Positions 10,730 through 34,531 of a stretch of 34,531 nucleotides of DNA are shown in pieces (position 1 is the stretch's first letter; each line of letters begins with the position of its first letter). The notes under the pieces were generated by a model. That model searched no databases and was not told the DNA's origin. It was given only the letters and a program-made list of their open reading frames with translations. The stretch comes from Planctomycetaceae bacterium (GTDB lineage: Bacteria; Planctomycetota; Planctomycetia; Pirellulales; Thermoguttaceae), in assembly GCA_003561895.1 (NCBI GenBank), contig PWXP01000406.1, forward strand, positions 1 through 34,531, given 5' to 3'. A program made the position numbers and the translations under genes.

Positions 10730-12445
10730 TCAAAACAGTCCGACGACCTCTTCATTCTCGTTGATGTCGATCGAGGCGGCCGCCGGGACTTTCGGGAGTC
10801 CCGGCATGGTCATGATGTCGCCGGCCAGCGCGACCACGAACCCGGCCCCGGCCGCCAGGCGGACGTCGCGCAGGGGCACGTCGAAGTTCTTGGGCCGCCC
10901 CGTCAGGCGAGGATCGCTGGAGAAAGAATACTGGGTCTTGGCCATGCAAATGGGCAGGTGCCCGTAGCCGGCGTCCTCCAGCGCCTGGAACCGCTGGCGC
11001 AACTGCTTGTCGGCCAGCACGTCGGTCGCCCCGTAGATTTCCCGGCAGATGATGTTCACTTTCTGCCAAAGGCTGCACGTATCGGGGTACAGGTAGTGGA
11101 AATCGCTCTTGGTGTTCTCGGCCACGTCCACGACGGCCCGGGCCAGCTCTTCCGCGCCGGCGCCGCCGTGGGCCCAGTTGGTCGCCGGCACGATCTCGAC
11201 CGACAGGTGGGCGCACTTCTGCTGGACGTGGTCGATTTCCTCTTCCGTGTCGCCCCGGAAGGCGTTGAGGGCCACCACGACGGGCAGCCCGAAGCGGTGG
11301 ATGTTCTCGATGTGCTTCTTCAAGTTGCCGAGTCCCCGCTCAAGCGCGTCGAAATTGGGCCGGTCGAGTTCCTTCGGCCCCGCCCCGCCGTGATGTTTCA
11401 GGGCTCGCACGGTGGCCACGAGCACCACGCAGTGCGGGTGGAGGTTGGCCTTGCGGCACTTGATGTTGAGGAACTTCTCGGCCCCGAGGTCGGCCCCGAA
11501 TCCGGCCTCGGTCACCGTGTAATCGGCCAGGCGCAAGGCGAGCTTCGTGGCGATGACGCTGTTGCAGCCGTGGGCGATGTTGGCGAACGGACCGCCGTGG
11601 ACGAACGCCGGCGTGTGTTCCAGCGTCTGCACGAGATTGGGCCTCAGCGCGTTCTTCAACAGCACGGTCATCGCGCCCTGGGCGTTGAGGTCGGCGGCGG
11701 TGATCGGCTTCCGATCGCGGGTGTAGGCGACGATGATCCGGCCGAGCCGCTCGCGCAGCTCGGTGAGCGATTCGGATAGACAGAAGATGGCCATCACTTC
11801 GCTGGCGACGGTGATGTCGAAGCTTCCCTCGCGGGGAATGGAGTTCCCGACGCCGCCCAGGCCGACGAGGATCCGCCGCAGGGCGCGGTCGTTCATGTCC
11901 ATCACCCGGTTCCAGGTGATCCGGCGGGGGTCGATCTGCAGGGCGTTGCCCTGGTGGAGGTGGTTGTCGAGCATCGCGGCGAGCAGGTTGTGGGCCAGTT
12001 CGATGGCGTGCACGTCGCCGGTGAAGTGGAGGTTGATGTCCTCCATGGGGACCACCTGGGAGTAGCCGCCGCCGGCGGCGCCCCCCTTCATGCCGAAGCA
12101 CGGTCCCATGGACGGCTCGCGCAGGCAAACAGCCGTACGCTTGCCGATGCGTTGCAGGCCGTCGGCCAGACCGATGCTGGTGGTGGTCTTCCCTTCGCCG
12201 GGCGGGGTGGGGGTGATGGCCGTGACCAGGACGAGTTTGCCCGTTCGGTGGGCGTTCCTCCGCCCATCGAGCCCCGGCGGGACTTTCGCCTTGTACCTCC
12301 CGTACAATTCCAGGTGTTCCTCCTCGATCCCCAGCCGGGCGCCCACTTCGGCAATGGGGAGCGGCTTGACGGAGCGGGCGATTTCGATGTCCGGCCGCAG
12401 GCCGACCGATGGCAGGTCGACCGGCGGAGACGGTGCAATGGTCAT
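10730..12445 (-). CDS. fhs: Formate-tetrahydrofolate ligase
   Basis: [81 protein letters not shown]. Confidence 0.97.
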
Positions 12446-12501
12446 AACGTCCTCTCGAGCTGAGTAAGGCAAAGATACGTAAACGCGCCGGTCACGGCGT
12501 C

Positions 12502-14238
12502 TCATGGTGGCAACGACTCTGTCTCTCGAGTGCGGGCGAGGCGCTGTGTCTCAGATTCGGGCGATGCGGCGCCGGCGGGCATCTCCCCCGTAACGGGGTT
12601 TCTCGCCGGCGGCGCGCCGGCGCGCTCCGCGCCGGCGGCCCCATTGCCCGCTCCCGCGCGGTCTTCGGCGTCCGAGTCCTCTTCGGCCAGGTGATCGCGC
12701 TCCAGGAATCGGTTCGCCCAGGCGGAAGTGTGCCGCAGTTCGCCGCGGTAGAAGACCGGGGGGCGATCGAGCATCGTTTCGCCTTCGCCGAGGTATCGCA
12801 TGCGATGGTACACCCGCACCCAAAAACAGTGCTTGTCGTCCCGTTCACAGCGGCCGTCGGCGGATCCGCCGCACGGACCGTTGCGCAGGTGTTTCGAGCA
12901 GGCGATCATGGGGCACAGGTAGGCGCATTCCGGGAGACTGCAATCGCCGCAATCCTGGCAGTCGTACGTCAGAAACTTCGCCCGCCTCTCCAGCCAATGG
13001 GCCGCGCGCCCGAGCCGCCCGCCCTGAGCGTCCCATCGCGAGCAAAGTTTTTGCATCGCGCCGAACAGCCCCCGATCGCGCGTGAACAGCCAGCGGTGCG
13101 CCAGGAGCGAAACCCGGTAGCCGAGGGTGATTTCGCGGCTTCGCGGCGGATGGTCGAGCGTGCGGAGGTATTCGGGGTTCAGCCGCGCCGGCTCGCTCAG
13201 GCCCGTGGCCGGCTCGTGCTCGAACAGGAAGAACTCGCCGGGCTGGGCATACTGGATTTCCCGGATGAAGTCGCGCCAGTCGTCGGGGCCGAAGCCTTCA
13301 GCCATCTCGATGATCCGGCTGAAGGTGTCCGGCTTGGCCATTCCCCCCAGATAGCCGCCGGCAAACCCGAGCCCCTTGAATACGGCCAACTGCTTCGCGG
13401 CCAGTTCTTGGAAAAAGCCGCGCCCCTTGTCGGGGCCGGCGGCATACTTCCGGACCTCGGCCAGCAACGCGTCGCTGACCACGCAACCGGCCAGTTGGCG
13501 CTCGTGGAACATGCGGGCGACGGTCTTGCTGAGCAGATAGGCGTTGCCGACCACGGGCACGTCGAGGCCGCGGGAGGCCAGCAGCAATTTCACCTCGTGG
13601 AATTTCCGCATGTCGTAGCCGAGTTGGGGAATCACCCAGCGGCCCCCGGCGGCAATCTTCCGCACCAGCTTCAGATACTGGGGGATCAACTCCGCCTCGT
13701 GCCGCTTGAACGGCGAGACGGCGCAGCCGATGAAGAAATCGGTCGCGGGAAGGACCTCCAGATTGCCGCGCCGGCCCGGCACCCGGAGCCCCTCGTTCAT
13801 CGACTGCAGCAGTCCGATCAGGCTCATCGCGTCCAGGTCGAACACGGGGGTCGCCCCGCCCCGGAAACCGCCGGTCGGATAGTCGCCGGTCAGGGCCAGC
13901 ACGTTCTCGAGGCCCTCGGCGCCGTTGCGCCAGGCAGCGGCCTCCAAGGCATTGCGGTTCATGTCCTTGCAGGTCAGGTGGACCACGAGCCGCTCGCGAT
14001 GTTCGGGCAACAGCCCCGCAAGCCAGTCCGGCGGAAGCATGGCCGTGCCGCCCGGATTGTCGGTCACCGAGATCCACCCCACCTGCGGCGCCGCAAGCAG
14101 GTCGCTGGCCATGGCCGCCGCGTCGCCGCCGGAAGCGGGCGACGGGAGCCCGCGGCTGGTGACCACTTCCACCCCATAGTGGAACCGGTCGGACGTGACC
14201 ATCTCCCGGTAAGAACGGGCCTGGTTGGCGGCAATCAT
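12502..14238 (-). CDS. Fused MetF-MetV-type methylenetetrahydrofolate reductase
   Basis: N-terminal MTHFR domain ([15 protein letters not shown]...[12 protein letters not shown]...LTGDYP). C-terminal cysteine-rich MetV-like domain ([39 protein letters not shown]). True start may be ATG near 14202 ([10 protein letters not shown]). Confidence 0.88.
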
Positions 14239-14289
14239 GGTTGGCTCCCCTTGTTGGTCGGACGGTGTTGTCCAGCGCAGCAGCGGCCT

Positions 14290-15129
14290 CTATACCTGGG
14301 CCGGCTCCACTTGGGCCGGCAGGCCCCTCTGCATCCTCCATGCCTTGATGTAATCGTCGCTGTACAGTTCCTTGCCCAGCAGGACCTCGGCGGAGATCAT
14401 GGCCGCGATCAACTCGTCATCGGCGGCGTCGACGATGGCCGCGTCCAGCCCGGCCGCCAGGCACATGACCAGGAAGGTGCGGTTCAGCAGCCGGTTCATC
14501 CGGCATTTCTGGCTGACGTTGGAAAGCCCGACGATGAACTTCGGCGGCGGGTCGTTGACGATCGACAGTTGCCGGATGGCCTCGATGACGAACTGTTGCT
14601 GCTTGAACGCCGCGTTGACCGGCAGGACGATGGGGTCGATGTAGATCGCGTCGATGGGGATGCCGTGCTCCAGGGCGGTCATGATGAAGGTCGCGCCGCA
14701 CTCGATCCGCTTCTCCACGTTGCCCGGCACGCCCTCCTGGTCCATCGTCAGGCCGATGATGGCCGCGCCGCACGAGGTTGCCACGGGAAGGAGTTTCTCC
14801 ATGTAGCTCGGTGCGGCGGTGCAAGAGTTGATCACCAGTTTGGTGTCGGGCAGCGCATCCCGCACCCGCGGCACCACCTGGACCAGCAGGTCGGCCTTGG
14901 CGCTGTCGAGCGAGAGCGGCTTGTCGGTCACCTCGTGGACGGTGCGGGCGAGCCAGACGAAATGCTCCACGGCGTCTCCCTTGGCCGGGCCGACGTTCAG
15001 GTCCATCACGTCGGCGCCGCCGGCGAGCTGCTGCTCCGCCAGATCCTGGATCACTTCCGGGTTCCGCTCGACAATGGCCGATCGAACGTCGCGGTACATG
15101 CCGTTGATGCGTTCACTGAAGACAATCAT
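14290..15129 (-). CDS. acsE: Methyltetrahydrofolate:corrinoid/iron-sulfur protein methyltransferase
   Basis: DUF-type pterin-binding fold: ERINGMYRDVRSAI, GADVMDLNVGPAKGD, PLSLDSAKADLL, NSCTA. Confidence 0.92.
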   Translation of the reverse strand: MIVFSERINGMYRDVRSAIVERNPEVIQDLAEQQLAGGADVMDLNVGPAKGDAVEHFVWLARTVHEVTDKPLSLDSAKADLLVQVVPRVRDALPDTKLVINSCTAAPSYMEKLLPVATSCGAAIIGLTMDQEGVPGNVEKRIECGATFIMTALEHGIPIDAIYIDPIVLPVNAAFKQQQFVIEAIRQLSIVNDPPPKFIVGLSNVSQKCRMNRLLNRTFLVMCLAAGLDAAIVDAADDELIAAMISAEVLLGKELYSDDYIKAWRMQRGLPAQVEPAQV

Positions 15130-15236
15130 TCACTATCTCCTGGTGGTTGGGATGGAAGGTAGATGTTCCTTGATGGCATCGCCGAGGGGTTTTCCGCCGT
15201 ATCCAAAGGGAACCGCCCCCATGCGACGTTCCGTTA

Positions 15237-16199
15237 TTATGTTGCCGTTAGTTCGCCGATCGTCTGGCGGACCGCCTGCATGGCCTCGGGATGGCGAAGC
15301 ACCAGCAGGTCGGCGCTGCCCTGGAGGAGCACCGCGGCGGTGACCGCTTCCCAGGCCGGCCCGCGCCGGCCGATCGGGCCCCAGACCTCCGCCGCCTCGT
15401 CGCCGGTGCGGGCCTCTTTCGTCCGCCACGCCTCGTAACCCACGTCCAGGATCACCGGCTGGGCCATCACCCGGTCCCCGGCCAGCGCCGCCAGCCGGCC
15501 CCGCTCGAGGATCGAGTACACGTACTCCATGCCGTAGCCCAGCGCGGCCGTGGTCGGGTAGATGACCAGGTTGGTCAAGGGATAGCCCGTGTCGCTGACG
15601 AGGATGTTCACCTGCTTCGACTTGTTGATGTCGCACGGGGCCAGGGCGATCAGCTTGTGGCCGTAGGCCTGGGCGGCGGCGGCCAGCGTGCGGTAGTCGG
15701 TCTCGGTCACCGCGCCCAGCAGGCAGTTTTCCCCCCGGGTCGCCTCGGCCACCTTGGGCATCACCGCCTGGTCCTTCGCCGGCACGTCGCAGCCCCAGAC
15801 CACCAGCGGCAGATCGACGGCCTCGAGCACCGCCTGGACCGTTTCGACGGCGGCTTCGGGGGGCCGGTCGCCCTCGTCGGGGTGCGTGCCCAACAGCCGA
15901 AGATTGATCAGGTCGGCCCCCAGGTCCGCGGCCCGCCGAGCCCAGCCGGCCGGCTCCGACCAGACGTCGCCGTAGACCTCCCGCAACGGCTCGGGCCAAC
16001 CGACCGGCGTCGTATCGAGCACGTCCAGGGCGATCGCCGGGGGGTGGGGCGTCTCGCCGTCGGAACTCAAGAAGGCGATGCCCGCCTCGCCGCCGAGCGT
16101 CACCGTGCGGCCGCGGGTGCCGCCTTCGGCGGGCGTGGCGCCGAGCGTCACCGGGTTGATGCGGCCCGACCAGGTTTGTGTGGCGTCAGGAATGGGCAT
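15237..16199 (-). CDS. acsD: CO dehydrogenase/acetyl-CoA synthase delta (corrinoid Fe-S protein small subunit)
   Basis: ATG 16199 with AGGAGA upstream. GADLINLRLLGTHPD, DVPAKDQAVMPKVAEAT, YPLTNLVIYPTTAALGYGMEYVYSI. Confidence 0.93.
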   Translation of the reverse strand: MPIPDATQTWSGRINPVTLGATPAEGGTRGRTVTLGGEAGIAFLSSDGETPHPPAIALDVLDTTPVGWPEPLREVYGDVWSEPAGWARRAADLGADLINLRLLGTHPDEGDRPPEAAVETVQAVLEAVDLPLVVWGCDVPAKDQAVMPKVAEATRGENCLLGAVTETDYRTLAAAAQAYGHKLIALAPCDINKSKQVNILVSDTGYPLTNLVIYPTTAALGYGMEYVYSILERGRLAALAGDRVMAQPVILDVGYEAWRTKEARTGDEAAEVWGPIGRRGPAWEAVTAAVLLQGSADLLVLRHPEAMQAVRQTIGELTAT

Positions 16200-16235
16200 A
16201 GGGTTCTCCTCGCAGGCTGTGGGAAGTTCCATGGT

Positions 16236-17012
16236 TCAATACGCACACGCCGTACGCGTGCAAAGCATCTCGGCCACTTGCTCGACGGCCGACCAGGCAG
16301 GGCTCGGCTCCGGCAGGGTGAATACGTCGCGGCCCGCGGCGCCGGCACGCAGGACGCCGCGGTCCTCGGGCACGTCGGGAAGGCGGTGGGCGTCCAGCGC
16401 TTGCAACTCGTCCCGGATCTCCGCCGGCACCCCCTCCGGTTCGGCCCGATTCAACAACACCGCCCGGTAGCCGATCTGCATCGGCAATTCCCGCGAAAGG
16501 GCCACGATCCGCTGGGCCGCGCGGAGCGACGGGCGCGTGGGGTTCAACACGGCAATGAGGAAGTCGATGTCGTTGGTCGTCCGCCGGGAAAGATGCTCCA
16601 TGCCGGCCTCGTTGTCGATCACCACGGCGGCATAGTTCCGCGCCAGTTCACCGAGCGACGTGCGCAGCAAGTTGTTCACCGCGCAGTAGCAGCGGGGTCC
16701 CTCGGGCCGGCCCATGGTGACCAGGTCGAAGCCCTCGGCCTCGCTGATCGCGCGCTGAAGCTCGTCCTCGACGGCGCGGACGCGGCCGATGCCGCTGGAG
16801 GGGGAGCCTTCGGGCGCGGAGCCCTGCTCGCGTATGTCGGCGAGGGTCGTGCCCTCCTCAACTCCCAGGGCCTCGGCAAGGTTCGAACTGGGATCGGCGT
16901 CGACGGCCAGGATCGGCCGGACGCCGCGCTGGCGCAGGGCGCGGACCAGCAGGGCGGCCACGGTCGTCTTGCCGATGCCCCCTTTACCGGCTACGGCGAT
17001 GGAAAGCGTCAT
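16236..17012 (-). CDS. cooC: CooC/AcsF-type nickel-insertion ATPase (copy 1)
   Basis: Deviant Walker A AGKGGIGKTTVAALL, AVDADPSSNLAEALG. ATGA overlap with the preceding gene. Confidence 0.9.
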   Translation of the reverse strand: MTLSIAVAGKGGIGKTTVAALLVRALRQRGVRPILAVDADPSSNLAEALGVEEGTTLADIREQGSAPEGSPSSGIGRVRAVEDELQRAISEAEGFDLVTMGRPEGPRCYCAVNNLLRTSLGELARNYAAVVIDNEAGMEHLSRRTTNDIDFLIAVLNPTRPSLRAAQRIVALSRELPMQIGYRAVLLNRAEPEGVPAEIRDELQALDAHRLPDVPEDRGVLRAGAAGRDVFTLPEPSPAWSAVEQVAEMLCTRTACAY

Positions 17013-19030
17013 GATGCGTTTCTCCTTCCCTCACGAGCGTAGGCCAAGACCGCCGGCCCCGACTCGCGCTGCAAGCGCTCCGCCGTCGAGGGGAAATAGG
17101 CCAGATCCGTATGCGGCAGGAAGCAGGCGGAGGTGAACCGCTCCATGTACTGGGGATCGGCCATCAATTCCTGGTAGGTGATCCGCTCGCGGATGCGGTG
17201 GGCGTCATCGAACATCCGGCGGTTGAGAATCGCCTGCTTGGCCCCGGTCAGCGCGCTGTTGCCGATGAACTGGAATTGCTCCAGGGGCAGCTCCGGCAGC
17301 AGCCCGATGGCGATGCAACCGGCCACGTCCAGCCGGTTGCCGAACGCGCCGGCGATGTAGACGCGCCCGATGTCGGCAAAGGACAACCCCAACGACTGGA
17401 CCAGGGAATCGGCCGCGGCAAAGATGGCGCCCTTGGTGCGGATGAGGTTGTCGATGTCGTACTGGGTAATCACCAGGTCGCGCCAATGCTGGGCCTCCTC
17501 GGCCGAGACGACGACGAACTCCGGCTGGACGTCCTCCTCGCGCAGGCGGAAGCGGCTGCCGGCGGCCTCCGGGTCGAGGCGGCCGTTGCGGTCGATGATC
17601 CCGGCGAGAAACATCTCGGCCAGGGTCTCGATCAACCCGGTGCCGCAGAAGCCCACCGGCAGCGCCTCGTCGATGGTGGTAACGGACACGACCGGGCCGG
17701 GGCGGAAGATCCGCACGCGGTCGATCGCCCCGGTCGTGGCCCGCATCCCGCAGGCCACCGACGCGCCCTCGAACGCGGGTCCCGCCGAGGCGGAGCAGGC
17801 GACGAGAAACTCCTTGTTCCCCAGCACGACCTCGCCGTTGGTGCCGATGTCGAGAAACAGCGCGATCTCGTCGCGCTGGTGCATGCCCGAGGCGAGGATG
17901 CCCGCGGTCGTGTCGCCGCCCACGTAACTGCCGACCATCGGCAGCCCATAGAGCAGGCCGCGGGGATGGATGCGGATTCCCGCTTCGGCCGCGCGGACCG
18001 GAGGCGGACAGGCGACCGTGGGAACGAACGGCGCGATGCGGACCAGGTCGGTCTCCAGGCCCAAGAGGAAATGGAGCATGGCCGTGTTGCCCGCCGCCAC
18101 CACGCACTGGATGTCGCCGCGTCCGATTTGGGCGCGGCGGACGAGGTCCTCCAAGAGGGTCTCCACGTCGCCGATCACGGCGTTGTGCAGCGCCTTGGCG
18201 CCGCCGGGGCGGCGGGCGTAATTGATCCGGCCGATCACGTCCTCGCCGAAGCCGATCTGGGAGTTGTACTTGGCCGCCGCCTCGCGGGTTGCGCCGGTGA
18301 GCAGGTCGACCACGTGGGCGACCACGGTGGTCGTGCCGACGTCCAGCGCCAGGCCGAAGCTTCGTTGCGAGGTGTCGCCTCGTTCCAAGCAGAGGACCTC
18401 GCCCACCTCCCGGCGCATGCCCACGGTGGCCGTCACCTGCCCCTCCCACTCCCAATGCCACGACGAACGGTTCACCGTCAGCCGGCGCAGCAGCCGGGGC
18501 AGTTCCCGGGCGACCTTCAGTCCCATTTGCAGCGGCCCCGGCTGCCGCTTCGCCACCGCTTCGAGCAGCCGTTCCTGGTCGGCGGTCGGGTTGTCGAGGG
18601 TCGGCGCGTCCAACTCGAGGAAGGTCTTCTGGGTCACCGGGTCCAGCCCGCCGGGCAAACGCTCCGCCTCGCGCCGCTCGAACGCGCGGAACCGGTCGCT
18701 GTCCTTGCCGACCCCGATGAAGCTGCTCAGCCGCGATTCGGGCGGGACCTCCACGACCAGGTCGCTGTGCGGCACCACCTGACAGGCAAGGACGTAGCCG
18801 CGGCGGATTTCGGCGCGGGTGAGAAACTCGGTCGACTCGCCGCTCACTTCCCCGTCGCGGACAATCAACCGGCACTTGCCGCAGGTCCCTTCACCGCCAC
18901 AGATGGCGCCCACGTACACCCCGGCGGCCTGGGCGGCTTCAAGCAAGGTCTTTCCCTCCTCAATGGCGGCTTCGCGCTCATCCGGCAGAAAGCGGATCCG
19001 GTGCCCGATGTTCAGGCTGGTCTTTTCCAT
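17009..19030 (-). CDS. RACo/AcsV-type reductive activator of corrinoid proteins (2Fe-2S plus ASKHA domain)
   Basis: ATG 19030. AICGGEGTCGKCR ferredoxin cluster, LALDVGTTTVVAHVVDLLTG, DIGTNGEVVLGN, IAGAFGNRLDV. Confidence 0.9.
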   Translation of the reverse strand: MEKTSLNIGHRIRFLPDEREAAIEEGKTLLEAAQAAGVYVGAICGGEGTCGKCRLIVRDGEVSGESTEFLTRAEIRRGYVLACQVVPHSDLVVEVPPESRLSSFIGVGKDSDRFRAFERREAERLPGGLDPVTQKTFLELDAPTLDNPTADQERLLEAVAKRQPGPLQMGLKVARELPRLLRRLTVNRSSWHWEWEGQVTATVGMRREVGEVLCLERGDTSQRSFGLALDVGTTTVVAHVVDLLTGATREAAAKYNSQIGFGEDVIGRINYARRPGGAKALHNAVIGDVETLLEDLVRRAQIGRGDIQCVVAAGNTAMLHFLLGLETDLVRIAPFVPTVACPPPVRAAEAGIRIHPRGLLYGLPMVGSYVGGDTTAGILASGMHQRDEIALFLDIGTNGEVVLGNKEFLVACSASAGPAFEGASVACGMRATTGAIDRVRIFRPGPVVSVTTIDEALPVGFCGTGLIETLAEMFLAGIIDRNGRLDPEAAGSRFRLREEDVQPEFVVVSAEEAQHWRDLVITQYDIDNLIRTKGAIFAAADSLVQSLGLSFADIGRVYIAGAFGNRLDVAGCIAIGLLPELPLEQFQFIGNSALTGAKQAILNRRMFDDAHRIRERITYQELMADPQYMERFTSACFLPHTDLAYFPSTAERLQRESGPAVLAYAREGRRNAS

Positions 19031-20358
19031 TGCTGTTTCTTCAAGTAAGTGGGAAGTCCGGCGGCCTCTTTGGGGCCGATCTCGACACCCCAGCCCGATT
19101 CGTCTTCCACGCCCGCCGAAAGTACCGCCACGAAGCCCGGGAGCACCAGCTTCTTGTGCGCGATCCGGCTTTCGAGCCCCGTTTGGTTCAGGGCCTTGGT
19201 AATGGTTTCGGCGTTGAACTTGTCGGAGGCCCAGGCGGTGAGCACCGAGGTCCCCTCCGTGTCGACGGCCAGCACGTAGGCCGGTACGCGACTGGCCTCG
19301 ACCTCCGACTCGACCGAATAGTAGCTCAACGAGAAGTTCGTGGTCACCAGCACGGGCGAGTCGTCCCCGACCGCGCCCACGCTGTACAGCTTCGGCTCCA
19401 CCGCCACCGGTTTCTGGGGATCGGTGTAGATGTCCTGCCGGGTGGTGAGAATGGGCAGGATCTGCCACGGCTCGCAGGCGTCGGTGACGACCACCGCGGC
19501 GTACTTGGCCACGTAGGTGCCGGCCTCGACGGCCTGCATCGTGGGGTCGGCGCTGCTGGTCAGTGCGAGGGTCGGGTAGCCCAACGCCCGGAAGTTCTTC
19601 AGGGCCAGGCGCCGTATCGCCGTCATGGCCTCCAGGGTCGGTTTCAGCCCCCGCGCACCCGGATCGAGCACGAGTTGCTCCACGCCGAGCACCGCCAGCT
19701 TGGAACTCAAGTCGGCCAGCGCCTCCAACCCGTCGGCCCGCACGGCCAGGGGGCAGTTCTCGTCCTTGGCCACCGCGGCGGCGGCCCCGGCCTCGGCCGG
19801 GTCGGTAATGTACAGCAGGGGGCGCCGGCCGGAGAGGGCCGCGGCCGCCCGGCGGAGGTTGCCCGCGGTGGCCGACATCACCACGCAGGCCAGCCCCGAG
19901 GCGTCGGCCGCCCGCTTCGCGGCCTTTTCCAGCTTCGCCGGGTCGCCCGACTCGTTGTCCACGGCAACCAGGTCTACGCGAATCCGGAGCCCGACCCGCT
20001 CGAACGCCAACCGGCCGACCGCCTCGGCCCGCGCGGTAATCGCCTGCTCGTCGTCGAGGTCGGAAATGCGGACGGCGACGGCCGTGGGGCGGTGGAACTT
20101 CTCCTCGTGGCGGTACAGTTGCGTCTCGTTGCCCACCTTGATCTCGGCATCGCCCGCCCCGATGGTGACCAGTTGGATAGGCGGGCGCGAGGCCGATTCG
20201 AGAGCGGCTGCCGCGTCGGCGCTCACGTGGGGGCACGCCTCCAGCGCCACCTGCTTGGTCGCCACCTTCATGGCAAACGCCAGGCAGGTGGGAAGGCCGC
20301 AGTCCTTGCAGTTCGTCTTCGGTAAGTTCTTGTAAATGTCGAGGCCGGATAACGCCAT
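19012..20358 (-). CDS. acsC: Corrinoid Fe-S protein large subunit (gamma)
   Basis: ATG 20358. MALSGLDIYKNLPKTNCKDCGLPTCLAFAMKV (4Fe-4S) and TIM-barrel/corrinoid domain sequence. Confidence 0.95.
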   Translation of the reverse strand: MALSGLDIYKNLPKTNCKDCGLPTCLAFAMKVATKQVALEACPHVSADAAAALESASRPPIQLVTIGAGDAEIKVGNETQLYRHEEKFHRPTAVAVRISDLDDEQAITARAEAVGRLAFERVGLRIRVDLVAVDNESGDPAKLEKAAKRAADASGLACVVMSATAGNLRRAAAALSGRRPLLYITDPAEAGAAAAVAKDENCPLAVRADGLEALADLSSKLAVLGVEQLVLDPGARGLKPTLEAMTAIRRLALKNFRALGYPTLALTSSADPTMQAVEAGTYVAKYAAVVVTDACEPWQILPILTTRQDIYTDPQKPVAVEPKLYSVGAVGDDSPVLVTTNFSLSYYSVESEVEASRVPAYVLAVDTEGTSVLTAWASDKFNAETITKALNQTGLESRIAHKKLVLPGFVAVLSAGVEDESGWGVEIGPKEAAGLPTYLKKQQWKRPA

Positions 20359-20405
20359 CGAATTTTCCTTTCCACGGGGAATCAGTATTCGTCGAGTCCT
20401 GCGCC

Positions 20406-22607
20406 TCACCCAATCAGCGGATCGAGGCTGGCCGCCGGGTGTCCCTTCGCCGCCAGGAACCCCGCCACCTCCTCCTCGGTCGTGGCGTCTTCCTCGGTGG
20501 CGATCTTCTCCAGCAGGTCGGGCTCGCCGATCCGCTCCGCTTCTTGCTGAAGCCTCTCGGCCACCGTTTCCTTCAGCGAGCGGGGCATCCACACCAGCCG
20601 CCGGATGCCGCCGTCGGCGGCGAGGAACTTCGGGCTGGACAGGTACAGCCGCCCCACTCCCAGGAATCCCGGCGTCTGCGCCCCGCCGCCGGTGACCGAG
20701 GCCAACTCGCCAAAGCTCATCCCGCACGGCGTTCCCCCTTGGTGCTCCCGGTTGACCACCATCACGCCGTTGGCTACCGGCAGCATCGCCACGATGCACT
20801 CGAAGCAGCCGCAACTGGTCATCGGCGATTCCAGAAGGCTGTAGGCGCAGAAGCGCTCGACCTTGCGGTTCGACTGCTGGTACACAAACTGGTTGACCCC
20901 TTCCCACTCGCCCTTGCCCGCGTCGATGGTGCGGCCCTTGGCGATGGGCTGGTTGGGGCCGGTGGGGCTGATCTCGAAGTTGGCCCGGCCGTCCAGCCAG
21001 TTGTACGCCCCGCACAACCCCAGCCGCTGCGGCGTGATGACGCACACGTGGTCGGGCGCATAGCTCTGGCAGATCGTGCAACTGTAGTACGTGTCGACCG
21101 ATTCGTCGGTCATCCCCGCAATGCGGTCGTCGCGGAAGGCGAAGGCGTCGCCGGCCTCGGCCGCCTTGGCCTCGACCTTCTGGGGATCGGTGGCGAGGTG
21201 GACGGCCACCTTGTCGACAATCCCGCCGTACTCCTCGTGGATCTTCCCGTAGAGGATCGTGCCGAGGGGCTTCAGGCGCAGGCCGGCGTGGAAGGCCTTC
21301 TTGCTGATCCGGCACCAGATCTGGTCGCGCTGGCCGGTGTGCATGAAGCCCATGGCGTGGCTGAGCCAGCGGTGGACCTGCCGTTCGAGGATTCCCTCGA
21401 AATCGCGCTGCATCTTCCGCCCCGCCACGAGCACCTCGATCGCAAGCGGCATGGCCCCGCCCTCCTCGATGGTGTCGATGTCCGGGCCGTCCACCACGGT
21501 CCGGCCGTCCTCGACGTCGTCGGCCACGTGGACGTACTCGACCGCCGGCGAATACTTGTAGCCGAACTGCACGTGCATGTCGTCCTTGCGCACCCGCTCC
21601 CCCTCGAACGCCGCCGCGTAGCCGATAGGAATGTCGATCTTCTCCACCTTCACCTTCACGGCCCGGGTGTCAGTACACGTGGGGACCAGCTTGTCATAGT
21701 CGGTCTGGACGACCAGGGCCTCGCGCACGGTCACGCCGGTCGGTCGGACCTCCGGCGTGGTGGGCCGGTCGGAAATAATCGGGTAGCCCATGAGAATCGC
21801 CCCGGCGCCCAGGGCGTACCAGTCGTCGGGAATGTCGCCGAAGGTGATTCCGAAGGCGTGAATGCGGTTCTTCGTGTAGTCGAGGCACTTGCGCGTCTCG
21901 CCCCGCTTGTGGCCGCCGAACGTCAGCGCGCTGCGGATCGACCAGTTGAGCACGTAAATCGAGTCGAGTGTGTCGGGCCCGACCGGTACGACGTACTGGT
22001 CCCAGCACTCCTTCAGCGGCGCGTGCTCCTGGAGCACGCCGCCTTCGTACATCTGCTCCCGGGCCGTCTTTCCCTCATGGTTGGCGCACAGGAAGGTGAG
22101 GATGCTCCGATTCTGGAGTTCGCGCACTACCTTCACGGCGATCTCCGTGCTCGGCGCCGGACCGAGGATCAGGGCGAAGCCGGGCATGCGGCCGTCGACG
22201 AGCTGAATGCCCAGTTCGCGCATGATCGTGTCGGAGATGAACCCCTGCCAGCCCGGCGGCGTCTGGTAGCCGTTGGCGGTCCGCAGCGCCACGAGCGCCT
22301 CGGTGGCCAACATGCTGGCCACCCCCGCGTCCAGGCCGTCGCCCAGGTAGGGCAGCCAGAGCTGCGCGTCGGGAACCGGCCGCAGCAACTCGCGGGCGTG
22401 GTCGAGTTGGGCTTGCAGGTCGCCCAACGTCTTCACTTCCAACCCCATCAGGGCGTACGACATGGGCAGGGAATAACATGTCTGAGTTCCCCAGCCCACG
22501 GGCCGGTCGGGGCCGTACTCGGCAATCGCCGCCTGGAACTCCGCTTCCGCCTGCTGAACCCAGGCGTGCGTCCCTCGGATAACTTGCGTGAATACTTCTC
22601 GCGACAT
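20406..22607 (-). CDS. acsB: Acetyl-CoA synthase (ACS, A-cluster subunit)
   Basis: ATG 22607, 733 aa. A-cluster motifs CTICQSYAPDHVCVITPQRLGLCGA and CGCFEC; GGGAQTPGFLGVGRLYLSSPKFLAADGG. Confidence 0.97.
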   Translation of the reverse strand: MSREVFTQVIRGTHAWVQQAEAEFQAAIAEYGPDRPVGWGTQTCYSLPMSYALMGLEVKTLGDLQAQLDHARELLRPVPDAQLWLPYLGDGLDAGVASMLATEALVALRTANGYQTPPGWQGFISDTIMRELGIQLVDGRMPGFALILGPAPSTEIAVKVVRELQNRSILTFLCANHEGKTAREQMYEGGVLQEHAPLKECWDQYVVPVGPDTLDSIYVLNWSIRSALTFGGHKRGETRKCLDYTKNRIHAFGITFGDIPDDWYALGAGAILMGYPIISDRPTTPEVRPTGVTVREALVVQTDYDKLVPTCTDTRAVKVKVEKIDIPIGYAAAFEGERVRKDDMHVQFGYKYSPAVEYVHVADDVEDGRTVVDGPDIDTIEEGGAMPLAIEVLVAGRKMQRDFEGILERQVHRWLSHAMGFMHTGQRDQIWCRISKKAFHAGLRLKPLGTILYGKIHEEYGGIVDKVAVHLATDPQKVEAKAAEAGDAFAFRDDRIAGMTDESVDTYYSCTICQSYAPDHVCVITPQRLGLCGAYNWLDGRANFEISPTGPNQPIAKGRTIDAGKGEWEGVNQFVYQQSNRKVERFCAYSLLESPMTSCGCFECIVAMLPVANGVMVVNREHQGGTPCGMSFGELASVTGGGAQTPGFLGVGRLYLSSPKFLAADGGIRRLVWMPRSLKETVAERLQQEAERIGEPDLLEKIATEEDATTEEEVAGFLAAKGHPAASLDPLIG

Positions 22608-22629
22608 TTCGTCTTCTCTCCAACTAGGG

Positions 22630-24582
22630 TCAGCCCACGGCGGCCACGGCTTCCACGGTCTTCTGGGCATAGGGAACGGGGTACATCGACGCCGGGAGCC
22701 CCAACTCGACGCGCTTGCAATCGATGTGGTCGATCATCAGTTGCGCCGCCTTGATCGGATCGGGCTCGAAGCTCCAGGTGGCGCCGAAATGCTTCTCGAT
22801 TTCCCGCGTCAGGAAATCGACCGCCCAGGCGCTCCCCTCCACCGGCAACGACTGGCCGATAACCACCGACACGCCGCTGGCGACGAAGTACATGCCAATG
22901 GCGATGGCCTTCTCGCTCATCCACTCGGGCGCGGCGCCGGCCACCGGCAGTTTGTCGAACGAATCGCCCAGACCGCCTTCGGCGACCATCTCGGCGCAGG
23001 TCGTCAGGATCCGCGAGTTATCCACACAGCTTCCGCAGTGCAGGACGGGCGGCATGCCCACGGCGCGGCACACCTCCTGAAGCCCCTCGCCGGCGTGCTG
23101 CATTGCCGCCTCCGGCGTCAGCAGCCCACCCTTGGCGCACGCAATCGCGCTGCAGCCGGTTTGCACGACCAGCACGTCGTTGCGGATCAACTCCTTGACC
23201 ATCGCCAGGTGGGACTCGTCCTGGGGGAATTTCGGGTTGTTGCACCCCACCACGCCGGCCACCCCGCGGATGCGCCCCGTTTGGATGGCGTCGTTCAGCG
23301 GCCGGTAGCTCGGCCGGTAGCGCCCGCCGAGAATCTCGGAAACCACCTCGCGCGTGAAGCCCGCAATCAGCGGCTGCCGCTCGTGCGGAATGGCCACCTT
23401 GCCCGGATCGCGCCGGCCGAACGCGGCAATGGCCTCGCGGACGATCTGCCGTGCGGTGTCCCAGGCCCGCTCCTCCTCGAAGGCGATGTGCTTGGCCCCG
23501 CGGAACTGGGCCTTCGGACTCGTGGAAACCACCCGCGTGTGGAAACACTGCTCGAACTCGGCCAGCGACGGGAACACGCACTGCACGTCGACGAGCATCA
23601 CGTCCACCGCGCCGGTCATCAGGGCCAGTTCCTGCTGGAGGAAGTTGCCGGCGATGGGCACGCCGTGGCGCATCAGCACTTCGTTGGCCGTGCAGCAGAT
23701 GCCCGCTAGGTTGATGCCCGCCGCCCCGGCCGCCTTGGCCTCGGCCAGCAGTTCCGCGTCGCGGCTGGCGGCCACCATCACGTCGGAAAGCGTCGGCTCG
23801 TGGCCGTGGACGAGAATGTTGACCTCATCGGCCTTCAACACGCCCAAATTGGCGCTGGCCCGAAGCGGCTTCGGCTGGCCGAACAGCACGTCGGAAACAT
23901 CCGTGGCGATCATCGAGCCGCCAAAACCGTCGACCAGGGCCACCCGGGCCGCCGCCAGCAGCAGGTGCTCCGGATCGTTGTCCACCCCCATGGCCGTCAT
24001 GTGCAGGGCGGTGGAGACCTCGCGGTCGATTCCCCGCGGGGTGGCGGCGCCCTGCGCCCAATTCTTCTGCTGTTGCTCGGGGGCGCGCCGGGTGTTGGCC
24101 AGCGCCCCGTCCTGCCGGCCGAACTCGGCCAGGAGGAACTCGGCCAGGTCCTTGGCAATCTGCCGGTCGGACCGGCCGTCGCGCGCGATGCCGTATTCCT
24201 CGGCCAACGCGTGCAGCTTGGCCGGACCGCGAATCTGGTACACCGGCGAGTTTCCCTCGGCCGCCATGAGCAGCGCCCGGACGATTTCGCGGGCGTGGTC
24301 GCAGTGGGCGGCCGTTCCGGCGGCGACGTGGCGGAGCAGATTCCGCGCGACGATCGTCTCGGCCGTCGCGCCGCAAACGCCCTGTTGCGGGCCGCGCCCG
24401 TCCTTGCCCACGCGGCAGGGCCCCATGAAACAATGGCGGCAACACAGCCCTTCGCGGCCGAACCGGCACTGCCCTTTCTGGGCGTCCAGCCGATCCCACG
24501 CCGTTTGGACCCCAAGGTTGCCCGCCACGTCCAGCATCGCCACGGATGCCGAGTCGGCGGATCGTCGCTTCTGCTCAGCCAT
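22630..24582 (-). CDS. acsA: Anaerobic Ni,Fe carbon-monoxide dehydrogenase
   Basis: ATG 24582 with AGGAG Shine-Dalgarno. CRFGREGLCCRHCFMGPCRV (B/D clusters), ICCTANEVLMRHG, VQTGCSAIACAK, HCGSCVDNSRI (C-cluster). Confidence 0.97.
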   Translation of the reverse strand: MAEQKRRSADSASVAMLDVAGNLGVQTAWDRLDAQKGQCRFGREGLCCRHCFMGPCRVGKDGRGPQQGVCGATAETIVARNLLRHVAAGTAAHCDHAREIVRALLMAAEGNSPVYQIRGPAKLHALAEEYGIARDGRSDRQIAKDLAEFLLAEFGRQDGALANTRRAPEQQQKNWAQGAATPRGIDREVSTALHMTAMGVDNDPEHLLLAAARVALVDGFGGSMIATDVSDVLFGQPKPLRASANLGVLKADEVNILVHGHEPTLSDVMVAASRDAELLAEAKAAGAAGINLAGICCTANEVLMRHGVPIAGNFLQQELALMTGAVDVMLVDVQCVFPSLAEFEQCFHTRVVSTSPKAQFRGAKHIAFEEERAWDTARQIVREAIAAFGRRDPGKVAIPHERQPLIAGFTREVVSEILGGRYRPSYRPLNDAIQTGRIRGVAGVVGCNNPKFPQDESHLAMVKELIRNDVLVVQTGCSAIACAKGGLLTPEAAMQHAGEGLQEVCRAVGMPPVLHCGSCVDNSRILTTCAEMVAEGGLGDSFDKLPVAGAAPEWMSEKAIAIGMYFVASGVSVVIGQSLPVEGSAWAVDFLTREIEKHFGATWSFEPDPIKAAQLMIDHIDCKRVELGLPASMYPVPYAQKTVEAVAAVG

Positions 24583-24642
24583 GTTCACTCCTGATTGCTA
24601 GTAGAATGTTCCTTCGCAACGGCGGGTCGCGCCGTCGCCTCC

Positions 24643-28939: not shown

Positions 28940-30847
28940 ATGAGCCTTCGATTCAAGCTGACCACCGTTGCTGTCGCAGTCATCGTGGTGGCCAATTCTC
29001 TGCTCTCATTTCTTGCGCTTCGGTACCTGGGGCATATCTGGCTCAACGAGGTCCAGACTCGGGTCCAGAGGAACTTGAACTCCGCCCGCGGCGCCTACCA
29101 AAAACATATCGAGTTGATCGTCGCCAGCTTGCAGGCCGCGGCACTGGACCAAACGTTGATTGCCGCGGTAGGGCGGGGTGACCGGGCGGAACTGAAGCAG
29201 ACGCTGCAAGCATTCCATGCAACGGGCAAGATGGATTTCGTAGGCGTACTGGACCCGATGGGGCAGGTGGTCTGCCGGGCCGGGAGTGAGCAGCGGGGAG
29301 ACGATCTTTCTGCCGACCCCCTCGTCGCCCAGGTAATCGACACGCGAACACCAGCCGGCGGCACGGTAATCCTGTCACAACAGCGCCTATCGGCGGAGGG
29401 ACCGGAATTGGCCGGGCAAGCACGGTTTGAAGTCATTCCGACCCCGGCCGCAAGGCCCACCGACGACCGTATCCGCACGGACGGCATGGTACTTGCCGGA
29501 GCCGCGCCGGTAACCGACCGAGAAGGGGAATCTGTGGCGATCCTGTACGGTGGGAAACTGCTGAACCGGCGCTACGAACTGGTCGACGCGATCAAACGGG
29601 AGGTATTTCCCGGCGAAATCTATCAGGGCAAGGACATAGGCACGGTGACCATCTTTCAGGAAGACCTGCGGATTTCCACGAACGTGACGATGGCCGACGG
29701 GGAGCGCGCGGTAGGCACCCGCTTGAGCAGGGCTGTGTGCGAAGCCGTACTCGACCGCGGCCAAACGTGGGCGGCTCCGGCCTTCGTGGTCAACGATTGG
29801 TACATTACGGCGTATGAGCCCATCCGGGATCCCACGGACCGGATCATCGGGGTGCTGTACGTGGGCCTGCTCCAAGCTCCATTCACGTCCCAACTCAACG
29901 TGATTCGCGCCGTCTTCCTGGCAATTGTGGGCGTGGCCACGCTGACCAGCCTGGCCCTGCTGGTGCTGGCTACCGAATTGGTGCTCCGGCCGATCCACAG
30001 CGTCGTGCGCATGGCTCATAAGGTGATCGGCGGCGATCTCTCCGCCCGCGTGGGCATCCGGCCGCCGGGCGAAATGGGAACGCTCTGCCGCGCGGTCGAC
30101 AGCATGGCCCAGGCCGTCGCGGAGCGGGAGGAACTCCTCGCGCTGGCCACGCGGCAGCAGATTGGCCGCAGCGAACAACTGGCGGCCGTCGGGCGGCTGG
30201 CGGCGGGCGTTGCCCACGAAATCAACAATCCGCTCACCGGCGTCCTGGCCTTCGCCGACATGCTCCGGGAAAAAGAAAACATGGACGAACAGGACAGGCA
30301 GGACCTGGACCTGATCGTCCGCGAAACCAAGCGGGCGCGCGAGATCGTCCGCGGGCTGCTGGAGTTCGCGCGGGAGACACCCTCGGCCAAAACCCTGCTG
30401 AACGTCAACGACGTTGTCCGGCAGACCACCCGCCTGTTGGGAAAACGCGAGGCGTTTCAGAATACCTTCATCGTCGAGGACCTTTCTGAAGACCTACCGC
30501 CGGTCAACGCCGACAAGAATCAGATCCAGCAAGTGCTGGTAAACCTGGCGCTGAACGGCTGCGAGGCGATGCCCGAGGGCGGAACCCTCATGATTTCATC
30601 CCGCTACGAGCATGGCCGGGTGGTTGTCAAAGTGACCGATACCGGCTGTGGAATCCAAAAGGCACACTTGGACCAGGTCTTCGAACCGTTCTTCACTACC
30701 AAGCCGGTGGGCAAGGGCACCGGGCTGGGGCTGAGCGTCAGTTACGGCATCCTTCGTCAACACGGCGGCACGCTGGAGGTCGAAAGTGAAGAGGGAAAAG
30801 GCTGTACCTTTACGATGACTCTGCCCTCAGCAGGGACGACGTCATGA
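28940..30847 (+). CDS. Membrane sensor histidine kinase (extracytoplasmic Cache-like sensor, HAMP, HisKA, HATPase)
   Basis: N-terminal TM, sensor region, second TM near LTSLALLVLATELVL, HAMP, H-box LAAGVAHEINNPLTGVL, G-box GKGTGLGLSVSYGILRQHGG. Confidence 0.9.
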   Translation: MSLRFKLTTVAVAVIVVANSLLSFLALRYLGHIWLNEVQTRVQRNLNSARGAYQKHIELIVASLQAAALDQTLIAAVGRGDRAELKQTLQAFHATGKMDFVGVLDPMGQVVCRAGSEQRGDDLSADPLVAQVIDTRTPAGGTVILSQQRLSAEGPELAGQARFEVIPTPAARPTDDRIRTDGMVLAGAAPVTDREGESVAILYGGKLLNRRYELVDAIKREVFPGEIYQGKDIGTVTIFQEDLRISTNVTMADGERAVGTRLSRAVCEAVLDRGQTWAAPAFVVNDWYITAYEPIRDPTDRIIGVLYVGLLQAPFTSQLNVIRAVFLAIVGVATLTSLALLVLATELVLRPIHSVVRMAHKVIGGDLSARVGIRPPGEMGTLCRAVDSMAQAVAEREELLALATRQQIGRSEQLAAVGRLAAGVAHEINNPLTGVLAFADMLREKENMDEQDRQDLDLIVRETKRAREIVRGLLEFARETPSAKTLLNVNDVVRQTTRLLGKREAFQNTFIVEDLSEDLPPVNADKNQIQQVLVNLALNGCEAMPEGGTLMISSRYEHGRVVVKVTDTGCGIQKAHLDQVFEPFFTTKPVGKGTGLGLSVSYGILRQHGGTLEVESEEGKGCTFTMTLPSAGTTS

Positions 30848-31950
30848 AAGACGATTGCCCAGTGACCCGCAGTAATGCAGTAGAGCCGTTGCCAAACCAG
30901 CCCGGTCCTGCGGCCGGCACTTCGACATGCCGGCCGGCCATCGAGTTTGAGGGAATGCTCGGCGGGTGCCGGGGCATGCAGGAGGTGTTCGGGCTGATCG
31001 AGCGGATCGCTCCGGCCGAGAGCACGGTGCTCGTCACCGGGGAAAGCGGAACCGGGAAAGAGATGGTTGTCGGGGCAATCCACCGGCACAGCCGTCGGCG
31101 GGATTTCCCACTCCTGGCCTGCGACTGCACGGCCCTGGCTCCCACGTTGTTGGAGAGCGAGTTGTTCGGCCACGTCAAAGGGTCCTTTTCCGGAGCGATA
31201 GCCACCAAGCGGGGCCTGTTCGAGGTGGCGCACCAGGGCACCCTCTTCTTGGACGAAGTGGGAAATCTCAGCCTGGAGACCCAAGGGAAGCTTCTGCGCG
31301 TGTTGGAAACCCGTCGCGTTCGCAAGGTCGGCGATACCGCGGAGCAGGAGGTGAATATCCGGCTGGTCGCCACGACCAATCGGAGTCTGGCCGAGATGGT
31401 CAAGATGGGCGCCTTCCGCGCCGACCTCTACTACCGGCTCAACGTCGTGCCTATCTCCCTGCCTCCGCTTCGCGACCGCCCCGGGGATATTTCCCTACTG
31501 GCCATGGCCTTCCTAGCAGAGTTCTCGCGGCAAATGGAGGTCGAACCCCGGGGGTTCTCGCCCGAGGCCATGCACCAGTTGGAAATCTATCCCTGGCCGG
31601 GCAACGTCCGCGAATTGCGGAACATCGTGGAACGATTGGCGGTCCTTTACGGCGGGACGCGCATCGAGCGCCGCCATTTGCCAGGTGAGATCCATGAAGC
31701 CCGAGCCGCGCGTTCAAGTGTGGAGGTATCGGGAAGTTGGGAAGAACTGAAGCAGCGGAAGCGGCAGATCGCCGACGATCTGGAACGCCGATTCCTCATC
31801 GCGGCCCTTCAGCGCTGCTCCCAGAACGTTACCCAGGCAGCGGAGAGCGTCGGGATGCAACGGACCCATTTCCACGCACTCTTGCGGAGCCATGGCCTAA
31901 AGGCCGGAGCGCCTTCCGAGGGTCCCACCGGGGATCTGGGTGAATCGTAG
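30844..31950 (+). CDS. Sigma54-dependent AAA+ activator without receiver domain
   Basis: GESGTGKEMVVGAIH (Walker A), GSFSGA (GAFTGA variant), LFLDEVGNLS (Walker B), YPWPGNVRELRN, Fis-type HTH NVTQAAESVGMQRTHFHALLRSHGL. ATGA overlap with the kinase. Confidence 0.93.
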   Translation: MKDDCPVTRSNAVEPLPNQPGPAAGTSTCRPAIEFEGMLGGCRGMQEVFGLIERIAPAESTVLVTGESGTGKEMVVGAIHRHSRRRDFPLLACDCTALAPTLLESELFGHVKGSFSGAIATKRGLFEVAHQGTLFLDEVGNLSLETQGKLLRVLETRRVRKVGDTAEQEVNIRLVATTNRSLAEMVKMGAFRADLYYRLNVVPISLPPLRDRPGDISLLAMAFLAEFSRQMEVEPRGFSPEAMHQLEIYPWPGNVRELRNIVERLAVLYGGTRIERRHLPGEIHEARAARSSVEVSGSWEELKQRKRQIADDLERRFLIAALQRCSQNVTQAAESVGMQRTHFHALLRSHGLKAGAPSEGPTGDLGES

Positions 31951-32121: not shown

Positions 32122-32137
32122 TGGCACGGCAGTTGCC
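32122..32137 (+). promoter_or_regulatory. Consensus-like sigma54 (-24/-12) promoter
   Basis: TGGCACGGCAGTTGCC fits TGGCACG-N4-TTGC, 120 nt upstream of ATG 32257. Confidence 0.75.
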
Positions 32138-32256
32138 CTGTGGAAAGGGCTCATGGAGGGATGGCTGAGGTAGCACCCCTCCTACGGCACTTCGCGTTGT
32201 TCTGCAAAGCGATACTTATCCTGTTTCACCCAGCAATTGATAAGGAGGAGGCTGTT

Positions 32257-33840
32257 ATGGCGGACAATCCTGCACTGTTGGTGGTCGATGACGAGGAGGT
32301 CGTTTGCCAGGCATGCCGGCGGATATTCTCTCGGCAAGGGTACCAAGTCGATCTGAATACTGATGCCCGGCAAGGGCTGGCCTGGGCGGTGAAGAACGAC
32401 TACGAAATTATCCTCTTGGACATCAAAAGGCCGAACATGGACGGCATCCAGTTCTTGGAGCAATTGCGGGAGCAGAAGTCGGACGTACCCGTGCTGATCA
32501 TTACCGGCTACCCCAGCATTCCCAATGCCGCCTCGGCAATGCGGCTGGGGGCTTGCGACTACGTTACCAAGCCCTTCACTCCCGAGGAAATCACGCAGGC
32601 GGTGCAAAGGGTTTTGGCCACGCGGCGGTTTCCCGACGGCGAAACGGAAACGCCTGCCGGCATGGAGGAGCCGGACACCGGGGTCGAAGCGGGTTCCGAA
32701 ACGTTGTTCTGGGACGAATCGTGGTTGCGGGCCGAGCCCGATGGATCGGCATGTGTCGGGGCTGTGCTGCCGGGGTTGCGGGGCGACGAACCGGCCACCG
32801 TTCAGTTGCCGCGCATTGGCGAGGTCGTTTACCAGGGACTGCCGCTGGCCGGAGTCGGCACGCCCGATAAGCCGGTGCATATCGTCCCTTCGCCCATCTC
32901 CGGCGTCGTGGTCGCGGTCAACGACTTGCTGGCGCAGCGGCCCGCACTGGTGGCGGGCGATCCCTGCGGATCGGGTTGGCTTGCCTGCATTTGCACGACT
33001 CAATACGACGACGAAGTCAAACATTGCCGTCCGCGGCGGATCGTCCTGGTCAATGCCGATCCTCCCTCCGCAGGGCAACAGGCGGAGAAGCTCGGCAACC
33101 TTGGTTGCGAGGTCGTGCAGGTGCAGGATCGCGGGGCATTGGCCGAGGTGCTCGAGGATACCCGCGATCGCGTGGCCGTTCTTGACGCCGCCTCGCTCGG
33201 CGAATCGGGTCCGGAGTTGGCGGGCATGATCAACGAGCGAGCGCCCTCGCTTCGGACCGTGGTAGTCGGCGCGCCCGGCGGCGCGTACGAAACGGCCTAC
33301 CGGAAACAGAAGATATTCTACTACGCCGTCGAGCCCTTCTCCGACAACGAAATTGCCGACATCCTATCGGACGTCTTTCACGTCTCGGCGGCCGCCGCTC
33401 CCGAACGAAAAGGCCCCTCGGAGCCGGTCAGCAGCATCACGATCACCAACCGCAACGGGCACAAGGTGCATCTGCTTTCCGCCCCGGGCCTGCTGTGGCG
33501 GAACGAGGGCCTCGGCGCCCTGATCGGGCAGAAGCTGCTGGCCAAGATGTTCCCGGTGGTGATCACGCCGGGCGTGGCCAACCTCACGCCGGCCAACATT
33601 CTCAAGATGGCCGCCGGCAACGACCGGCTGATGGTCTTGCTCGCCCGCGACGCCGGCCGGCTGCCCGGCAGCCTCTCGCGCGACACGAAGCCGGAGTTCG
33701 GCATCGACCCCGGCGAGGCTGCCGGCAAGGTGACCACGCTAGCCGTACAGCCCGACGCCGTCGGCGGGCTCGCCACCCTCGACGCCCGCACCACCGCCGC
33801 CCTGGCCGACCATATTGTGCGGGAAATGGCATTGTATTGA
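32257..33840 (+). CDS. Multidomain response regulator: receiver, GcvH-like domain, pseudo-receiver-like domain, C-terminal domain of unknown function
   Basis: ATG 32257 with AAGGAGGA Shine-Dalgarno. Receiver VVDDEE...LLDIKRPNMDG...ITGYPS...YVTKPF. GcvH-like segment DESWLRAEPDGSACVGAVLPGLRGDEPATVQLPRIGEVVYQGLPLAGVGTPDKPVHIVPSPISGVVVAVNDLLAQRPALVAGDPCGSGWLACI. Confidence 0.85.
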   Translation: MADNPALLVVDDEEVVCQACRRIFSRQGYQVDLNTDARQGLAWAVKNDYEIILLDIKRPNMDGIQFLEQLREQKSDVPVLIITGYPSIPNAASAMRLGACDYVTKPFTPEEITQAVQRVLATRRFPDGETETPAGMEEPDTGVEAGSETLFWDESWLRAEPDGSACVGAVLPGLRGDEPATVQLPRIGEVVYQGLPLAGVGTPDKPVHIVPSPISGVVVAVNDLLAQRPALVAGDPCGSGWLACICTTQYDDEVKHCRPRRIVLVNADPPSAGQQAEKLGNLGCEVVQVQDRGALAEVLEDTRDRVAVLDAASLGESGPELAGMINERAPSLRTVVVGAPGGAYETAYRKQKIFYYAVEPFSDNEIADILSDVFHVSAAAAPERKGPSEPVSSITITNRNGHKVHLLSAPGLLWRNEGLGALIGQKLLAKMFPVVITPGVANLTPANILKMAAGNDRLMVLLARDAGRLPGSLSRDTKPEFGIDPGEAAGKVTTLAVQPDAVGGLATLDARTTAALADHIVREMALY

Positions 33841-34425: not shown

Positions 34426-34531
34426 AAACGCGGATCGCGGTCACCCCCGAAATCCACTTTGGGAAGCCTTGCGTGGCGGGCACGAGGATTCCGGTGCAGA
34501 ACGTCCTGGAGTTGGTCCGCGACGGTCTTTC
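34422..34531 (+). CDS. DUF433 antitoxin-like protein (partial, runs off the window)
   Basis: MKTRIAVTPEIHFGKPCVAGTRIPVQNVLELVRDGLS matches the DUF433 N-terminal motif. ATGA overlap with the upstream ORF. Confidence 0.8.
   Translation, partial: MKTRIAVTPEIHFGKPCVAGTRIPVQNVLELVRDGL

Follow-up and report, generated by a model that had tools for sequence, protein, structure and literature searches.

A four-domain response regulator with GcvH-like and HycI/HybD-like folds in a family of anaerobic planctomycetes

What does a response regulator do when its receiver is followed by a relative of the glycine-cleavage H protein (GcvH)? This question is raised by a gene of a Planctomycetaceae contig (PWXP01000406.1), of which the whole stretch of 34,531 nucleotides analysed here is called the window. 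In most response regulators, the output domain binds DNA or is a signalling enzyme. The initial annotation of this gene, whose product we call RRH, had proposed a regulator that senses or carries a C1, lipoyl or redox state, or else uses the H fold as a scaffold, next to a Wood-Ljungdahl cluster.

Table 1. Features of the RRH locus, with a fusion protein from another genome in the last line
Feature	Position	Strand	Basis or remark
Wood-Ljungdahl cluster	10730..24588	-	transcription runs away from the kinase-activator-RRH genes
Sensor histidine kinase (sCache_3_3, HAMP, HisKA, HATPase_c)	28940..30847	+	Pfam; first gene of the module, conserved in sister genomes
Sigma-54 activator, AAA+ domain and lid	30844..31950	+	Pfam; 4-base overlap with the kinase gene
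Sigma-54 (-24/-12) promoter-like site TGGCACGGCAGTTGCC	32122..32137	+	135 bases 5' of the RRH start codon
Shine-Dalgarno AAGGAGGAGG	32242..32251	+	read from the sequence; strong; precedes the RRH ATG
RRH, four-domain response regulator	32257..33840	+	527 aa ORF
Canonical receiver, RRH residues 8-117	32278..32607	+	phospho-acceptor D55 codon at 32419-32421
GcvH-like domain, RRH residues ~150-250	32704..33006	+	Pfam, PDB search, orthologs, AlphaFold
K205 codon, H-protein lipoyl-lysine position	32869..32871	+	alignment; unconserved among orthologs
Pseudo-receiver, RRH residues ~258-374	33028..33378	+	alignment, AlphaFold, residue conservation
HycI/HybD-like domain, RRH residues ~388-527	33418..33837	+	motif, profile, Foldseek on AlphaFold model
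REC-GcvH-HdrC fusion, one protein	L090:6701-8068 (G098 contig C232)	-	adjoins a second REC-GcvH protein

Domain make-up of RRH

RRH consists of a receiver (REC), a GcvH-like domain, a degenerate second receiver and a C-terminal domain, in this order. The canonical receiver seen by the initial annotation is borne out: Pfam Response_reg matches residues 8-117 with E=4.3e-32, and D11, D12, D55, T83 and K105, as expected of a REC phosphorylation site, are invariant in 13/13 orthologs. No helix-turn-helix (HTH) or other DNA-binding Pfam match was found in any of the 13 family members examined (0/13), and RRH also lacks an AAA+ domain. The AlphaFold model of the whole protein, built from a 13-row alignment, predicts four ordered units and a disordered linker at residues 124-146 (mean pLDDT 81, pTM 0.72). 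Foldseek with this whole model was swamped by receiver matches and thus uninformative.

The homology with GcvH claimed for the segment behind the receiver also held. Pfam GCV_H matches residues 155-251 (E=4e-9, 36.9 bits for a cut-off of 22.2), the domain alone retrieves the E. coli H protein from the PDB (phmmer, E=2.3e-10), and all aligned orthologs (13/13) match GCV_H, the best of them with E=2.8e-12. Since the two Pfam matches, the PDB match and the 13 orthologs agree, the domain observation is confirmed far beyond chance. The lysine is another matter. Its gapless alignment with the lipoylation position of H proteins is correct for K205 in the window's RRH, but Lys occupies this position in only 10/22 distinct orthologs, the remainder having Q, N, R, G, S, E or D. 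Among five REC-GcvH relatives from other planctomycetes, none has Lys there (0/5), the residue being R, H or G. Also, the ESxK context is absent throughout the RRH orthologs and these five relatives; an ESxK-type motif is retained by 25/27 ordinary GcvH-like proteins found in the same search. With 37.5 bits, the H domain of RRH stays far under the 115.85 required by the gcvH equivalog model, and in a tree of H domains those of RRH form a single clade (98/94) separate from GcvH. A common clade of RRH and REC-GcvH H domains was neither supported nor rejected (AU p=0.235).

Judged from these alignments, the GcvH-fold domain of RRH has lost the ESxK lipoylation signature, and since the lysine is not conserved, lipoylation as the function of RRH is very unlikely. 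Compared with GcvH (PF01597), the RRH domain shares fold and sequence homology over ~100 residues but sits behind a receiver and belongs to a clade of its own, without a conserved lysine or ESxK motif. The proposed carrier or sensor of lipoyl or C1 state finds no support in this conservation check, and the alternative of the H fold as a scaffold gains support and stays standing.

A second receiver-like region does exist, in degenerate form. Among its phosphorylation-site residues only D310 is kept, which is invariant; where a receiver has its second pocket acid, switch Thr and Lys, this region has A/G and mostly E instead.

The C-terminal domain, which the initial annotation had left unassigned, can now be attributed to the fold of the hydrogenase maturation proteases HycI and HybD. 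In this domain, PGLLWRNEGLG (33484-33516) aligns with GNxLxxDDGxG of these proteases, and CDRxMVLLARDxGxLPGSL resembles their YDRAIVVDAIxTGAPPGT. Its AlphaFold model has a pLDDT of 91, and Foldseek against the PDB placed HycI/HybD at ranks 1-6, 8, 10 and 13 (top E=1.9e-3, prob 0.99), with modest TM values of 0.42-0.52. A comparison by hhalign with local HycI sequences gave a score of 24.4 (P=0.0036), a weak sequence statistic, to be set against controls of at most 17.2 for other families, 17.4 for the reversed profile and 20.2 for the best of 60 column-shuffled profiles. The sole match among 18,950 NCBIfam models was "hydrogenase 1 maturation protease", with a weak E=0.089; Pfam gave no match and the PDB sequence search nothing significant. 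On the predicted structure, the domain most likely adopts the HycI/HybD fold. As to the metal ligands of the protease, which we take to be Glu, Asp and His after E. coli HybD, Glu is kept in 9/13 RRH orthologs, Asp is lost and there is no conserved His; to judge by these positions, enzymatic activity is unlikely. Thus, the predicted fold is that of HycI/HybD (PF01750), and the domain differs from this family by its fusion to a response regulator and by lacking both conserved metal ligands and a Pfam match. Across many genera, neither the H domain nor the C-terminal domain has decayed: both folds are intact, and their core residues are invariant.

Distribution and genomic neighbours

Four-domain RRH occurs in 23/119 genomes of the window's Pirellulales family. 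In a phylum-wide sample of 392 genomes, all but three of them outside that family, we found no further case, so that in the sampled genomes this architecture is confined to one Pirellulales family. Two-domain REC-GcvH proteins were found in five genomes of the phylum sample (G098, G182, G197, G226 and G280). Like RRH, they combine a receiver with a lysine-less GcvH domain, and in several a histidine kinase gene is adjacent. Unlike RRH, they have neither the pseudo-receiver nor the HycI-like domain, and their H domains fall in a separate clade. A search for REC-GcvH on plasmids returned receiver matches only, among the matches listed.

Sister genomes share the order sCache kinase, sigma-54 activator, RRH. 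The window's activator has a Fis-type HTH match slightly under the Pfam cut-off and is missing the receiver that is present in most sister-genome activators; the L001 activator also lacks a REC, and those of L002 and L136 have a decayed one. The site TGGCACGGCAGTTGCC is the only one over the score threshold in the whole window. Given that 0.8 matches are expected there by chance for a simple sigma-54 pattern with one mismatch allowed, this single site alone proves little. Across loci, 14/20, the window included, have a site with a score of 11.5 or more out of 12.9 within 450 bases before RRH, versus 0.6% of equally long random stretches taken from these loci; RRH start codons are approximate in some loci. 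The RRH module resembles NtrC-type systems in having an sCache kinase, a sigma-54 activator and a -24/-12 promoter, and differs from them in that RRH itself has neither AAA+ nor HTH. Within the clade nearest to the window (L001, L002, L131, L134 and L136), RRH is often followed by a further kinase and/or sigma-54 response regulator, distinct from the first. The G447 genome has two RRH paralogs (contigs C11 and C57), one at the head of an Hdr-hydrogenase operon and the other with an additional kinase and sigma-54 response regulator next to it.

By surveying the neighbourhoods, we found heterodisulfide-reductase (Hdr), FlpD and hydrogenase genes to be the recurrent neighbours of RRH. Genes of the HdrC/HdrB/HdrA type follow in the same direction in about 11/21 loci; FlpD is also found downstream in L024, L130, L132, L136, L138 and L139, with an MvhG/MvhA-type hydrogenase in addition at some loci. 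In L130 (G447), for example, the order is histidine kinase, sigma-54 activator, RRH, HdrC, HdrB, HdrA, FlpD and NiFe hydrogenase large subunit, and in L132 (G453) Hdr-type and EtfA genes are followed by HdrA-FlpD-MvhG-MvhA. In L017, NuoF and formate dehydrogenase (FDH) genes lie 3' of RRH in place of Hdr genes. About half of the RRH loci, the window among them, are without adjoining Hdr genes. The NiFe hydrogenase of the window's genome is 80-82% identical to the operon-borne versions, and its contig starts inside the small-subunit gene; HdrB had no match in this assembly, which is 86% complete.

Outside the family, an operon in G098 encodes a kinase, a sigma-54 response regulator, a REC-GcvH protein, a REC-GcvH-HdrC fusion, an HdrA-like protein, FlpD and formate dehydrogenase, so that here REC-GcvH lies within an HdrA-FlpD-FDH operon and is itself fused to HdrC. 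This fusion appears, at the level of gene structure, to be the most direct evidence for a REC-GcvH module acting at an Hdr complex. Another G098 contig (C443) carries a receiver fused to a pyridine-nucleotide-disulfide oxidoreductase (L093:2558-4375, + strand), which is CoA-disulfide-reductase-like with a single-Cys motif and hence a second receiver-tagged redox protein; it adjoins a REC-GcvH protein, a HypE-like AIRS protein and an sCache sensor. In other planctomycete families (L094, L096, L098, L101 and L107), receiver-less GcvH-like proteins of mostly 230-265 aa form a separate clade in which the lipoyl position is mostly Arg. Three GcvH-like proteins are found close together in L092.

Family genomes with RRH more often have HycI (20/23 versus 17/96 without RRH; P=9e-4 by genus), NiFe hydrogenase (19/23 versus 19/96; P=2e-4 by genus) and CdhC (10/23 versus 5/96; P=0.012 by genus), all figures being confounded by shared ancestry and incomplete genomes. 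As to the Wood-Ljungdahl adjacency to which the initial annotation had pointed, the cluster is real, with FTHFS, MTHFR with a zinc domain, AcsE, AcsD, CooC-like, RACo, AcsB and CODH genes, but it was seen next to RRH only in the window's genome, and the link is only a co-occurrence with CdhC. Elsewhere, the only candidate was CODH/ACS ~38 kb off in G009, and Wood-Ljungdahl was dropped as a conserved partner; its association with RRH is looser than that of the Hdr and hydrogenase genes. Within the cluster, an apparent AcsC-RACo fusion (17009-20413) was also rejected, RACo starting from about residue 467 and the upstream part having no AcsC match. At the contig end (~34423-34531), a truncated + frame, MKTRIAVTPEIHFGKPCVAGTRIPVQNVLELVRDGL, resembles the start of a DUF433-type antitoxin.

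A possible adaptor of electron-bifurcating complexes and its rivals

In about half of the sampled species, RRH heads genes of electron-splitting complexes, H2- or formate-linked, so that its probable role is that of a docking part that can be switched, not of a DNA-binding regulator or lipoyl carrier. More specifically, we infer, with a probability of roughly 0.45, that RRH, induced through sigma-54 and switched by phosphorylation, serves electron-bifurcating complexes of Hdr and hydrogenase (or FDH) as an adaptor without binding DNA. The sCache kinase would sense an anaerobic small-molecule or redox cue and itself phosphorylate RRH, whose gene, like the Hdr operon, would be turned on by the sigma-54 activator. 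RRH could then dock on the complex with its two borrowed folds, contacting the Hdr part through the H fold and the hydrogenase, FlpD or formate-dehydrogenase part through the HycI fold, and phosphorylation might gate the assembly or activity of the complex. In the window's genome, the likely client would be the group-3c-like hydrogenase encoded on another contig, and the Wood-Ljungdahl enzymes encoded next to RRH would consume the reduced ferredoxin. We hold somewhat more tentatively the fuller proposal that the receiver controls a flavin-based electron-bifurcating Hdr-hydrogenase/FDH complex directly at the protein level, through an adaptor of four domains of which two would stem from decommissioned GcvH and HycI enzyme-accessory folds, while the same kinase module controls transcription via sigma-54.

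A contact between an H fold and Hdr is made plausible by LbpA, a GcvH-type protein encoded with Hdr-type genes and an obligate, essential partner of Hdr-like complexes in sulfur oxidisers (PMC6067878); Hdr genes adjoin RRH in about half of the loci. However, the lysine is strict in LbpA, where two cysteines are also present with few exceptions (PMC6067878); in RRH it has been lost as a conserved residue, and a receiver is added.

The main rival takes RRH for an in-trans phospho-switch of the neighbouring sigma-54 activator: RRH would take up phosphate from the kinase and then free or hold back the AAA+ protein, which would close a feedback loop on the sigma-54 promoter of RRH itself. Since the window's activator has no REC, RRH would be the kinase's nearest intact receiver, and this, together with the REC-less activator of L001, the decayed RECs of L002 and L136, the fixed order of the three genes and the promoter directly 5' of RRH, is what recommends such a switch. 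There is also a precedent, REC-less sigma-54 activators under the control of a partner protein being known from PspF/PspA. However, most sister activators retain a good receiver beside a full RRH, so that this cannot be the ancestral role, and the H and HycI folds as well as the REC-GcvH-HdrC fusion would be left unexplained. We thus regard it as doubtful. Less probable again is that RRH is a phosphate sink or relay node in a branched two-component system, its other domains being inert remnants. A canonical REC, the absence of a DNA-binding domain and the frequent second kinase/sigma-54 response regulator pair downstream would suit such a node, but H and C-terminal domains that stay intact across many genera, with invariant core residues, are unlike inert remnants.

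Two readings would give RRH a catalytic or carrier output. A lipoyl (or other acyl/thiol) carrier under phosphorylation control, with K205 lipoylated, would account for the gapless alignment with the H-protein acceptor lysine and for the Lys of 10 orthologs; we rejected it on the non-conservation of this lysine, which is replaced in 12/22 orthologs and in 5/5 REC-GcvH relatives with the ESxK context gone, and the low equivalog score and the retention of the lysine by all Hdr-linked LbpA carriers (PMC6067878) also leave it highly improbable. Hardly credible, too, and if anything slightly less probable, is an active maturation protease in which phosphorylation would trigger hydrogenase processing. 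The HycI/HybD fold and the association with hydrogenase genes agree with it, but it was discarded on the loss of metal ligands, where the Glu is partly kept, the Asp lost and no His conserved, and a normal HycI is usually also present in RRH genomes.

Meaning for the family

RRH has a domain make-up that is new for a response regulator, and its output is probably not transcriptional. In the open-access literature searched, we found neither a GcvH fold nor a HycI fold described as a response-regulator output, and an archaeal two-component census does not mention the combination of receiver and GcvH.

RRH would be a case of accessory folds reused as interaction modules, lysine-less and metal-less, and automatic labels such as "glycine cleavage H" or lipoyl carrier would be misleading for such proteins. 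Its hosts belong to a little-studied family of anaerobic planctomycete bacteria. If RRH docks on the Hdr-hydrogenase, anaerobes would have a direct phospho-control of electron bifurcation, a process whose regulation is little understood.
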